Shown: positions 11,230 to 14,759 of the stretch, one piece after another
Layout of the letters: the number at the start of each line of letters is the position of its first letter
Position numbering within the stretch: position 1 is the stretch's first letter
Assembly (NCBI GenBank): GCA_030525525.1
Contig: JAUNEN010000001.1
Location: 94,934-147,045, forward strand
DNA length: 52,112 nucleotides
Reading direction: 5' to 3'
Origin: Erysipelotrichaceae bacterium
Lineage (GTDB): Bacteria; Bacillota_I; Bacilli_A; Erysipelotrichales; Erysipelotrichaceae
Made by a program: the position numbers and the translations under genes
Notes under the pieces: model-generated
What the model saw: only the letters and a program-made list of their open reading frames with translations
What the model was told of the DNA's origin: nothing
Database searches by the model: none

Positions 11230-13143
11230 TTAACCGAGCGGAATTTCGACGACTTCCGCCATCTTGGAAAGACATGTTTCAATCTGCAGCGAAATCTCTT
11301 TGACAAGCCGCTCGGTGATTTCTTCATTCTTTTCCTGTTCGAGCTTTGCATAAAGGCTGTTTTTCACTTCGGAAGAAATCACATCAAGGCGTGCTTTCAG
11401 ATGGCTTTTCGGAATCATCAGACGCACCGGCTTCGGAATCCTTGAATTTAACAGCATTTCCTGCATCTTCTCTTTGCCAAGCGCCAGGATCAGTAATGAT
11501 ACGACAGCTCCTGCCACAATGCCGGGCAGACCGTTGGCGACCAGCGCAATTCCGCCGCCTCCGCATAAAAGTCCGATCACAATCGACACGGTCGCATCGA
11601 TCAGCCATGTGATTTCCTTTAAAGCAAACAGACTCTTTGCCTCAACATTGATTTCGATATCGCTCATTGAAAGATAGGAATTGAGTGACAGAGCGGAATA
11701 AGGCACATTGTGCTTCACACAGATCGGCATCGTGAATTCTTCCAGTTCATAGGAAACTGTCTTGAGCCATTTGGAAACCGGCTTCATCAATAACTGCCTT
11801 GCTTCATCGGTATGGAGATAGGAATCAATCTCCTTCTCCATGATCGCATCGATTTCAGCCAGCTTTTCAATCGAACCGGATCTCCATCTTTCTGTGATCG
11901 GAAGTGCCACATGTTCGAGAATCGGTTCTACCATCGATTCAACCGCATCATGATAAAGTTCATTGATATGACTTTCGACAATCCGTTCCACCTGGCTTGA
12001 TTCCACCAGACGGCTGATTTCTTCCTTGAACTGTCTTAACTCTTCATCGATCTTGCCGCACCAGGCAAGTCCGGAAGCGACCGAGAATTCCGGTTCGCTG
12101 GAAGAAATGACAACCGCATCCGGGAATGCCTGACGGCACCATGTACGGATGACAGGCATTTTGGAAACGCCGCCGGTCAGGAAGATCAGTTCAGGCTGTC
12201 TGTCGGTGATCGCTTCCTTTGCCTGTTTCAGGCTGTCCAGGAAGACTTCCTTGAATGACTTGTTTTCCAGTCTTTCAACTTTCTGATTGAAGAGCTGATC
12301 GGCAATCTCTTCGTTGATTGTAAGCGTCAGTTTCACCGGAATCAGTCCGTGCGGGATTGTAACCGGCTGCGTGCATGTATTGTGTTTCCAGTAATCCTCA
12401 TCAGAGAAATATTTTTCCTTGAGTCTTCTTGCCGCAAAGTCGCAATAGCTCTGCCACGGCTCGCTCTCTTTGAAAATATTCCTGATTTTCTTCTCATTGG
12501 GGGAACGCTTAATTGATTCTTCCAGCAGAATCTCATCCATGATCCCGCCGCCTAAGAACACTTCACCGCCGGTTTTCAGTTCCACTTCACGGCCGCCGTT
12601 GATATAGGCAAAGTCGGTGGTTGAAGAACCGATATCGACAACAAGAACCGGCTTATTGAGAATGTCATAGCCGACCTGCAGATGCTTGGACTGGCATGCC
12701 GAAACAAGAGCGGCTCTTGATTCGGAAATGATTTTTGCGGGCGGGTATCCGGTCTTTTCAAAGATCATTCTGTATTCTTCACGGGCAACCCTGTCCCATC
12801 CGGCCGGACAGCCGATATAGAAACAGCAGTCCTCTCCCTGGATCAGCTGACCGCTGAGATATAATTCGCCAAGCACTCCCGACGCAAAGCTTTTGACATC
12901 ACTCAATGCTTCCGGATCAATCAGGAAGCGGCTTTTGAATCTTTCCTTGCGCTTGATCGCATCCGGGTTGTAACATGCCCCTTCGCCAATCAACAGCTTA
13001 CCGTCTTTGAGAAGTGCATAAGCGGTGATAAAGCTTTTTGCTTCATTGATATTCAGCACTTCGGGTATCAGATCCTTTGTGCTGTCGAGTCTGGTAACGG
13101 CGCTTTCCGCATCGCCGAGGTCAAATCCGTAAAACCTGTTCAT
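11230..13143 (-). CDS. Hsp70/actin-like ATPase with C-terminal membrane segment
   Basis: A 637-residue divergent member of the Hsp70/DnaK superfamily, not the housekeeping DnaK. (Residue numbers here count from the ATG at 13149.) The nucleotide-binding motifs are phosphate-1 GFDLGDAESA (residues 8-17), phosphate-2 VVDIGSSTTDF (170-180) and the adenosine motif LTGGVSKMP (324-332). After the ATPase part the usual beta-sandwich substrate domain is not recognisable; instead there is a helical region and a hydrophobic, glycine-rich stretch at about 514-557 long enough for two membrane passes, then an amphipathic tail. The ATG at 13143 has GGAG 7 nt upstream; the ATG at 13149, which would give an ATGA overlap with the previous gene, is too close to that site. 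It is coupled to the GrpE-like membrane protein gene just upstream. I infer a membrane-bound chaperone or switch; the client is unknown. Confidence 0.8.
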   Translation of the reverse strand: MNRFYGFDLGDAESAVTRLDSTKDLIPEVLNINEAKSFITAYALLKDGKLLIGEGACYNPDAIKRKERFKSRFLIDPEALSDVKSFASGVLGELYLSGQLIQGEDCCFYIGCPAGWDRVAREEYRMIFEKTGYPPAKIISESRAALVSACQSKHLQVGYDILNKPVLVVDIGSSTTDFAYINGGREVELKTGGEVFLGGGIMDEILLEESIKRSPNEKKIRNIFKESEPWQSYCDFAARRLKEKYFSDEDYWKHNTCTQPVTIPHGLIPVKLTLTINEEIADQLFNQKVERLENKSFKEVFLDSLKQAKEAITDRQPELIFLTGGVSKMPVIRTWCRQAFPDAVVISSSEPEFSVASGLAWCGKIDEELRQFKEEISRLVESSQVERIVESHINELYHDAVESMVEPILEHVALPITERWRSGSIEKLAEIDAIMEKEIDSYLHTDEARQLLMKPVSKWLKTVSYELEEFTMPICVKHNVPYSALSLNSYLSMSDIEINVEAKSLFALKEITWLIDATVSIVIGLLCGGGGIALVANGLPGIVAGAVVSLLILALGKEKMQEMLLNSRIPKPVRLMIPKSHLKARLDVISSEVKNSLYAKLEQEKNEEITERLVKEISLQIETCLSKMAEVVEIPLG

Positions 13144-13145
13144 AT

Positions 13146-14021
13146 TCATTCTCCTGCCGCCAGACCTTTGCGCAGAACCGTATTGGCAATGACAAGGGCC
13201 GGACGGATTGTCAGTCTGGCTGAGCCGGGCATTCTCTCAAAGAGATTTTTATTCTCGCCGTTGAAATCAACCACTTCGATCTGTTTTTTATGAAGATAGA
13301 ATTTCACATCGGAAATGACTTCTGCCGCAAATTCGTCATTCCGCTGGGCATAGGCATTTTCAAGCAGTCCGCTTAACAGCTGGATATCTTCCTTCTTCAT
13401 GCCTTCTTTTTCATCAAGCAGTGCCTGCTTTGCAAGAAGCGTTTCTTCGCTTCTGATGAGATTCAGTGTTCTGTCCATGGCAGCCGCACCGGCGAGCAAT
13501 ACATGATACGTCTTTGCCCCATCCGGGATCGTTTCTGCATAGAGCTCTTCATCATTTTTCTTTTTTGACTTTGCTGAAATCAGACCTGATACAAAAAGAC
13601 AGATGAGCGCCCCTGCCCACAGTGACAGCCCGAGAATCATATTGGGACTCGGCGGAACCATATCGGTTAAAAGAATCAGAACCGCTGCCGCTCCTGCCGC
13701 CAGCAGGATGCCGACGATTGCCAGAATGAAAAACCATGGCGATTTTTTAGCTTTCTCATGATCGGGACGGTATTCCGATTTTGACCAGATGGTTGACTGT
13801 CCGTCGCAATCCAGAAACCCCGCCGATGTGCGTAATGCTTCAATCATCGCCATCGCGGTTGTCTTGATTTTTTCGCTTGTCTCTTCTTCGTTATAGAGAG
13901 TGAGCATTCTGCTTAATTCCTCCTCAACGCAGCGGACTGTTTCAGCCGAAGATTTCGCAGCCGCCGCATTATGGAGAAAACGTTCTTTATCCTGTTCAAG
14001 AATTGCCTGCATGCCAGCCAT
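13146..14021 (-). CDS. Two-pass membrane protein with GrpE-like C-terminal segment
   Basis: A 291-residue protein with a helical N-terminal part (residues 1-90), two membrane helices (about 95-119 and 127-149), a positively charged stop KSKKKN, and a C-terminal domain of about 140 residues. The last 45 residues contain LHKKQIEVVDFN and TIRPALVIANTVL, which resemble the beta-wing of the nucleotide-exchange factor GrpE (compare GVE-x-I and [TV]-[IL]-RPA-x-V in the family). The gene overlaps or abuts the Hsp70-like gene downstream, the arrangement expected of an ATPase and its exchange factor. AAGGAG precedes the start. The similarity is by eye and short, so the GrpE role is a hypothesis. Confidence 0.65.
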   Translation of the reverse strand: MAGMQAILEQDKERFLHNAAAAKSSAETVRCVEEELSRMLTLYNEEETSEKIKTTAMAMIEALRTSAGFLDCDGQSTIWSKSEYRPDHEKAKKSPWFFILAIVGILLAAGAAAVLILLTDMVPPSPNMILGLSLWAGALICLFVSGLISAKSKKKNDEELYAETIPDGAKTYHVLLAGAAAMDRTLNLIRSEETLLAKQALLDEKEGMKKEDIQLLSGLLENAYAQRNDEFAAEVISDVKFYLHKKQIEVVDFNGENKNLFERMPGSARLTIRPALVIANTVLRKGLAAGE

Positions 14022-14083
14022 AATGTGAACTCCTTATTATCAATAAAAATAATAACATAAATCACATCAGCCGCTCTCATGCA

Positions 14084-14114
14084 AAGAAAAACCGCTCCAC
14101 ACAGCGTGAAGCGG
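14084..14114 (-). terminator. Intrinsic terminator after the zinc-ribbon gene
   Basis: Minus strand: CCGCTTCAC-GCTGT-GTGGAGCGG (nine pairs, one G-T) followed by TTTTTCTTT. It separates the zinc-ribbon gene from the GrpE-like/Hsp70-like pair. Confidence 0.85.
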
Positions 14115-14123
14115 ATTCATGCA

Positions 14124-14759
14124 TTACTTCAGTTTTTCACCGCAGTACGGACAGAAGACTTCATCCCCATCCAGTTCGCCATTGCAATGCGGACAGTATG
14201 TCTTTTCCTTCACCATCTTGGAGCCGCACGCCTTGCAGTAGAGGGCACCGATTCTGTTTTCGGTTCCGCAATACGGGCAGAGATTCTTTTCAGCTTCAGC
14301 CGGCTGTACACGGGTGACAGATTCTTCCTTGATCTCTTCCCTGACAATCGGCTCAACGCCGAGATAGTCCTCAATGAAGGAGAAGATTTCATCGGTCATG
14401 GTAGCCTGTCTTAAAGCACCGATGCCTGCCGTCAGAATCAGCGGATGGAAGAAGACTGCTCCGGCTGCCGCAATGCCGAGTTTTTCGGCCCATTTTTCAA
14501 AGCCGATGGTCACCTTCATGGTGGCGTCATCCTGTTCAAAATCAACTGCCAGGGCTGCGTCCATGCCGAGATACTTTGTCCACTCAGCTCCCGCATCGCC
14601 ACGGCACTGAATCGTATAGCCGCTTCTTGTGCGCATTGTCTGGGTGATCATGTTCTTCTTCACATCCAGATACTCTGCTAATGCATAAGCTGCAGACTGT
14701 GCGCTCTCCGCTGTACGGGGGTAAGTTCTTGTCACTTTATTTCCGATATCCATATTCAA
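14124..14759 (-). CDS. Double zinc-ribbon protein, function unknown
   Basis: A 211-residue protein. The C-terminal 55 residues hold two zinc ribbons: CPYCGTEN..YCKACG and CPHCNGEL..FCPYCG, each with two CxxC pairs. The N-terminal 130 residues have a mixed alpha/beta appearance with a short hydrophobic stretch (LGIAAAGAVFFHPLILTAGIGAL) that may be one membrane segment or a buried helix. It stands upstream of the GrpE-like/Hsp70-like pair but has its own terminator, so linkage is by proximity only. I do not recognise the N-terminal domain. An inverted repeat (14800-14814) lies in its upstream region. Confidence 0.75.
   Translation of the reverse strand: MNMDIGNKVTRTYPRTAESAQSAAYALAEYLDVKKNMITQTMRTRSGYTIQCRGDAGAEWTKYLGMDAALAVDFEQDDATMKVTIGFEKWAEKLGIAAAGAVFFHPLILTAGIGALRQATMTDEIFSFIEDYLGVEPIVREEIKEESVTRVQPAEAEKNLCPYCGTENRIGALYCKACGSKMVKEKTYCPHCNGELDGDEVFCPYCGEKLK

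Follow-up and report, generated by a model that had tools for sequence, protein, structure and literature searches.

Hsp70 machines are as a rule soluble, with peptides as their substrates, and in Hsc70 ATP is bound and hydrolysed by D10, K71, E175, D199, T204 and D206. The closest described arrangement to the locus presented here is the HSP70-GrpE theme of GAP1-N2 GTPase neighbourhoods, in which GrpE is encoded beside Hsp70-type proteins, some of them without a peptide-binding domain (Kaur et al. 2020, PMC7159879). Bacterial dynamins offer a further comparison; their genes are usually paired, as are those for Cj-DLP1/2 (PMC6104087). Here we describe an accessory two-gene cassette that is carried by some bacteria of the gut and rumen and by one cyanobacterial plasmid. 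The copy analysed is located within a stretch of 52,112 nucleotides of DNA from an Erysipelotrichaceae bacterium (hereafter the window; GCA_030525525.1, contig JAUNEN010000001.1, positions 94,934 to 147,045). We propose, with a probability of roughly 0.55, that the cassette encodes a membrane-bound Hsp70-type ATPase machine together with a dedicated and highly diverged GrpE-like exchange factor. A literature search, which did not reach most subscription journals, found no published description of the pair.

Both genes of the cassette are on the reverse strand of the window. The first (positions 13,146–14,021) encodes the partner, a two-pass membrane protein of 291 amino acids, and the second (positions 11,230–13,149) encodes the ATPase, a protein of 639 amino acids; each open reading frame was confirmed at the coordinates given in a preliminary description of this DNA. 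The stop codon of the partner gene and the annotated ATG of the Hsp70 gene overlap by 4 nt. In most relatives the ATPase begins at the second methionine (position 13,143), and Met3, at that position, is probably the family start. Across 40 related loci the spacing between the partner stop and the ATPase start is almost always −4 to +3 nt. Upstream of the partner gene there is an extended −10 promoter-like element (TGTTATTAT, positions 14,049–14,057, reverse strand). The pattern TGnTAnnnT is present in 28 of the 40 loci and in 27 of these is situated 28–36 nt upstream of the first-gene start; in control shuffles of the same bases, counting the pattern anywhere in the 120 nt upstream, it occurred at a mean of 6.5 loci and a maximum of 12. 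Further upstream, a terminator-like hairpin (a 10-bp stem followed by a T-run; positions 14,092–14,114, reverse strand) separates the cassette from a gene for a double zinc-ribbon protein (positions 14,124–14,759, reverse strand). The tight spacing, the terminator-like hairpin and the conserved promoter-like element suggest that the cassette is a bicistron with its own promoter. The zinc-ribbon gene was considered as a third component and rejected, as only the closest relatives have it next to the cassette and the terminator-like hairpin lies in between. Searches of the three neighbouring genes (ATPase, partner and zinc-ribbon) with Pfam, NCBIfam and PADLOC identified no known system.

The N-terminal part of the ATPase is an Hsp70-type nucleotide-binding domain (residues 3–366; positions 12,052–13,143, reverse strand). 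In particular, the Pfam profile PF00012 matched with an E-value of 4.9e-8 (32.1 bits against a cut-off of 20.6), the match covering only the ATPase part of the profile (positions 159–374 of 599). When a profile built from 14 relatives was compared by hhalign with the DnaK of the same genome, residues 3–366 aligned with a probability of 97% (E-value 5.8e-11, 25% identity), and the alignment ended at residue 366 of 639. Residues D10, K72, E143, D172, T177 and D179 align with the active-site residues of DnaK and Hsc70 and are invariant in the relatives, the Calothrix copy discussed below included. Consistent with these findings, the ATPase part of an AlphaFold2 (AF2) model matched the nucleotide-binding domain of DnaK/Ssz1 with a Z-score of 17.4, the model of the whole protein having a pLDDT of only 63. 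The match to PF00012 above its cut-off and the aligned active-site residues place the product in the Hsp70/actin-fold ATPase superfamily.

The nucleotide-binding domain is followed by 273 residues of long helices that include a hydrophobic hairpin. This C-terminal helical/membrane domain (residues 368–639; positions 11,233–12,048, reverse strand; AF2 helices spanning 369–632) replaces the peptide-binding domain; neither a DnaK-type interdomain linker nor a beta/alpha substrate-binding domain was found. It is always fused to the ATPase domain, and searches of Pfam and of PDB sequences with residues 368–639 returned no family above chance. The hairpin (residues 510–568; positions 11,446–11,622, reverse strand) is modelled as helices 510–529 and 541–568, with hydropathy peaks at 520–538 and 540–558 (Kyte-Doolittle 2.11 and 2.21) and a glycine-rich turn followed by a basic segment. 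On a biological insertion scale the hairpin is only marginal, and it could, being glycine-rich, be buried in the helix bundle instead of in the membrane. A remnant of the C-terminal domain that contains stop codons is present in another genome (G116:C24:8825–9109), which carries an intact cassette elsewhere.

The partner consists of a helical N-terminal domain (residues 1–80), a two-helix membrane hairpin and a C-terminal domain of 125 residues. Its hairpin (residues 95–151; positions 13,569–13,739, reverse strand; AF2 helices 95–118 and 126–151) contains two clear membrane segments, at 99–117 (Kyte-Doolittle 2.92) and 130–148 (2.17). The AF2 model of the partner has a pLDDT of 76, and Foldseek alone returned no significant match for it. 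An internal duplication relating the N- and C-terminal domains was rejected (score 12.9, below that of shuffles). By hydropathy, both proteins of the cassette have membrane segments. The preliminary description had proposed a divergent Hsp70 without the usual peptide-binding domain, a hydrophobic segment at its C terminus and a two-pass membrane partner. All of this is borne out: the PF00012 match is confined to the nucleotide-binding domain and homology stops at residue 366, the paired hydropathy peaks of the ATPase support a membrane hairpin, and the two segments of the partner are unambiguous.

The partner gene adjoins the ATPase gene in every complete locus examined. We found the ATPase in 50 of 294 genomes of an Erysipelotrichales sample and the partner tail in 48 of 288 genomes of a second such sample; the cassette is present in about one-sixth of the sampled genomes. 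All 48 genomes with the partner tail are also among those with the ATPase, and the two ATPase genomes missing from the partner-tail list are one in which the locus meets a contig end (G292, L007) and one in which the partner is visible at the locus (G291, L010). The only cases of one gene without the other lie at the end of a contig or in genomes that do not belong to the second sample. Comparison of 22–23 larger loci revealed no other gene common to the surroundings of the pair; the neighbouring sequences that were read encode, for example, branched-chain amino-acid transport (in the window), ribosomal protein uS4, cyclophilin and MATE transporters. Because the two genes are always adjacent at complete loci and their flanks are unrelated, they form a cassette, and the pair is obligate. 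The genes are under purifying selection (dN/dS of 0.06–0.11 against six relatives), which indicates that they are functional rather than chance open reading frames. The window's assembly also contains a further partner gene, which belongs to another subfamily and lies at a contig end where its ATPase gene is cut off (L147:3–860, G000:C21); this gene represents either a second cassette or contamination of the bin.

Copies with 60–62% identity occur in some rumen Clostridia; a sample of 398 genomes of their phylum contained a single carrier. In a phylogenetic tree the Clostridial copies fall together with those of three Erysipelotrichaceae genera (support 99/97), and the copies of one genus are split; judging from this tree, the grouping and the split point to transfer of the cassette between lineages. 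No phage or viral copies were found. A plasmid of the cyanobacterium Calothrix brevissima NIES-22 carries a gene for an ATPase with 29.6% identity (NIES22_68840, AP018209.1), preceded by a gene for a protein with two membrane segments. This upstream gene is frame-broken in the deposited record just before the conserved tail (L043:7600–8002); read across the break, its product keeps the tail (YFDFEPS...VTLAPALLKGDRLLRRGRV), which hhalign aligned with the family tail at a probability of 90% (E-value 1.9e-6). The frame shift may be a sequencing error, the result of decay or a programmed shift. The Calothrix genes resemble the cassette in architecture, gene order and tail motif but differ in being annotated as hypothetical proteins and in the frame shift of the upstream gene.

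The genome from which the window derives has a separate, CIRCE-controlled hrcA-grpE-dnaK-dnaJ set, ahead of which there are two CIRCE-like inverted repeats (L148:5883–5953). A search for CIRCE at the cassette found none, and heat-shock control of the cassette by HrcA was rejected on this ground. The preliminary description had envisaged a self-contained membrane chaperone separate from DnaK-GrpE. The exclusive pairing and the separateness hold; the chaperone role is unproven, since the ATPase lacks the client-binding domain and the cassette includes no J-domain partner, no third gene of this or any other kind being conserved with it. The chromosomal DnaJ, encoded elsewhere in the genome, could serve the cassette. 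Given that the ATPase lacks a peptide-binding domain, the cassette is probably not a general chaperone.

The candidate GrpE-like region of the partner is its C-terminal domain (residues 167–291; positions 13,149–13,523, reverse strand), which runs from a long helix through two further helices into a small beta domain. Its tail carries the motif FD..P..TIRPALV..G.LLKKGLA, and comparison of 24 family tails shows the stretch around IEVVDF...TIRPALV to be conserved, F, P, T, PA and KG being invariant. The predicted fold matched GrpE of E. coli (1dkg_A; Z 7.7, rmsd 7.4 over 119 residues) and GrpE of Geobacillus (4ani_A; Z 7.1, rmsd 6.0 over 127 residues), VIA-align scores of Z 7–8 being near background and arising by chance for helical models. 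Among the matches listed, only these two cover residues 160–291, and both alignments end at both C-termini, in register. Pfam and NCBIfam did not find GrpE, nor did a search of PDB sequences that used 24 relatives, and the GrpE profile PF01025, which detects the true grpE of the same genome, matched none of 24 partner relatives up to an E-value of 10; on this basis we rejected the partner as a sequence-level member of the GrpE family. Profile–profile alignment by hhalign to 28 GrpE sequences gave a score of 23.5, which beat all of 200 column shuffles (maximum 19.7) despite a reported probability of only 6%, and a simple gapped profile alignment gave 18.6, which is not above chance, several of 150 shuffles scoring higher. 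An ungapped scan of the 19-residue tail placed TIRPALVxDGxLLKKGLA on the final ELQKGYKLKDRVIRAAMVK of GrpE, with a score of 9.3 for the best register against −1.5 for the next. This register puts LLKKG, not TIRPA, on the last GrpE strand, and it agrees with the fold alignments ending at both C-termini. The resemblance to GrpE noted in the preliminary description is thus supported in part, by the predicted fold and the score above shuffles and not by the profile libraries, and the specific matching of TIRPALV to GrpE probably had the wrong register. We regard the resemblance as weak at the level of sequence and as moderate at that of the predicted fold. Taken together, the fold matches, the score above shuffles and the tail register favor a diverged GrpE-like origin of the tail as the likelier account, and they support, though they do not prove, a GrpE-like fold.

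These findings suggest a model for how the two proteins might work. ATP-driven closing and opening of the Hsp70 nucleotide-binding domain would be passed to the long-helix bundle that stands in place of the peptide-binding domain, and this bundle would hold the hydrophobic hairpin in the cytoplasmic membrane. The two-helix hairpin of the partner would anchor it in this membrane too, leaving both of its ends cytoplasmic, and its GrpE-like domain would open the cleft of the ATPase so that ADP is released. Such a machine would likely use ATP to remodel, gate or assemble a membrane target. The nucleotide exchange, the membrane topology and the work on the membrane are inferred. A membrane-anchored ATPase and exchange factor of this kind would demonstrate that the Hsp70-GrpE cycle can drive other kinds of work, and the cassette, being small, separate from DnaK and mobile between lineages, is directly testable in a laboratory host.

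The pair could be real and nucleotide exchange not the role of the partner, if its C-terminal domain were an unrelated helical-plus-beta domain that anchors, regulates or senses for the ATPase. We consider this possible and less probable than an exchange factor: the missing profile match, the low hhalign probability and the ease with which common helix arrangements can yield Z-scores of 7–8 all speak for it, but the sole two structures listed over residues 160–291 are GrpE proteins whose C-termini align in register, the ungapped register of the tail is in agreement with GrpE, and the gene is obligately paired with that of an Hsp70 ATPase. An actin-like, polymerising cytoskeletal ATPase of the MreB/FtsA type bound to the membrane is the most improbable reading, since the MreB_Mbl profile reached only a sub-threshold E-value of 9.1e-5 (ATPase residues 110–205), against the stronger, above-threshold Hsp70 match, and MreB structures occur in a list of fold matches that is led by DnaK and Ssz1.

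We also consider it unlikely that the cassette encodes a machine for membrane remodelling that has the layout of a bacterial dynamin but is powered by an Hsp70/actin-type ATPase. The order of elements in the AF2 model (nucleotide-binding domain, long helices 369–479, hairpin 510–568 and returning helices 581–632) would suit such a machine, as would the pairing of the genes (PMC6104087) and a weak match of ATPase residues 366–496 to LeoA (E-value 0.075). That match is within chance, however, no dynamin family appeared among the profile matches, and the nucleotide domain is of the Hsp70 type rather than a dynamin-family GTPase. Equally doubtful is the version that joins this idea to a GrpE-derived factor, in which a membrane-inserting helical trunk on an Hsp70 ATPase would be cycled by a membrane-embedded exchange factor; were it true, the membrane itself would be the substrate of an Hsp70 system. 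A role in an anti-phage or conflict system ranks slightly lower. The patchy distribution, unrelated flanks, plasmid copy and signs of inter-genus transfer in the tree would fit such a role, and GAP1-N2 neighbourhoods include HSP70, GrpE and HSP70 without the peptide-binding domain (PMC7159879); at one locus (L041:3972–8501) a gene for a STAND-like NTPase of 1509 amino acids, not seen at the other loci, is directly downstream. Against this, PADLOC matched none of the ATPase, partner and zinc-ribbon proteins except for the chance-level LeoA hit, most of the genes nearby have everyday functions in metabolism, transport or the ribosome, and no third gene accompanies the pair consistently: the 22–23 loci have no other gene cluster in common with the cassette, as conserved GAP1-N2/DO-GTPase neighbours would be.

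Compared with known systems, then, the cassette shares with the GAP1-N2 systems a GrpE or GrpE-like gene beside that of an Hsp70-type protein, which here, as in some members of those systems, lacks the peptide-binding domain, whereas it has no conserved third gene, its ATPase domain continues into a membrane domain and its exchange-factor-like partner is predicted to be membrane-anchored. With the bacterial dynamin-like pairs (Cj-DLP1/2, PMC6104087) it has in common the paired genes and a hydrophobic membrane element accompanied by long helices, but its enzyme is an Hsp70/actin-fold ATPase, not a GTPase, and there is no sequence match. It differs from DnaK-GrpE in that its ATPase is without the substrate-binding domain and linker, both of its proteins contain membrane hairpins, its partner escapes GrpE profiles and its genes lack CIRCE. 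Like DnaK-GrpE, it has an ATPase domain, homologous to that of DnaK, in which the active-site residues are intact; the tail of its partner is moderately GrpE-like in predicted fold, and its genes stand side by side with the exchange-factor-like gene first, as in the grpE-dnaK of the same genome.
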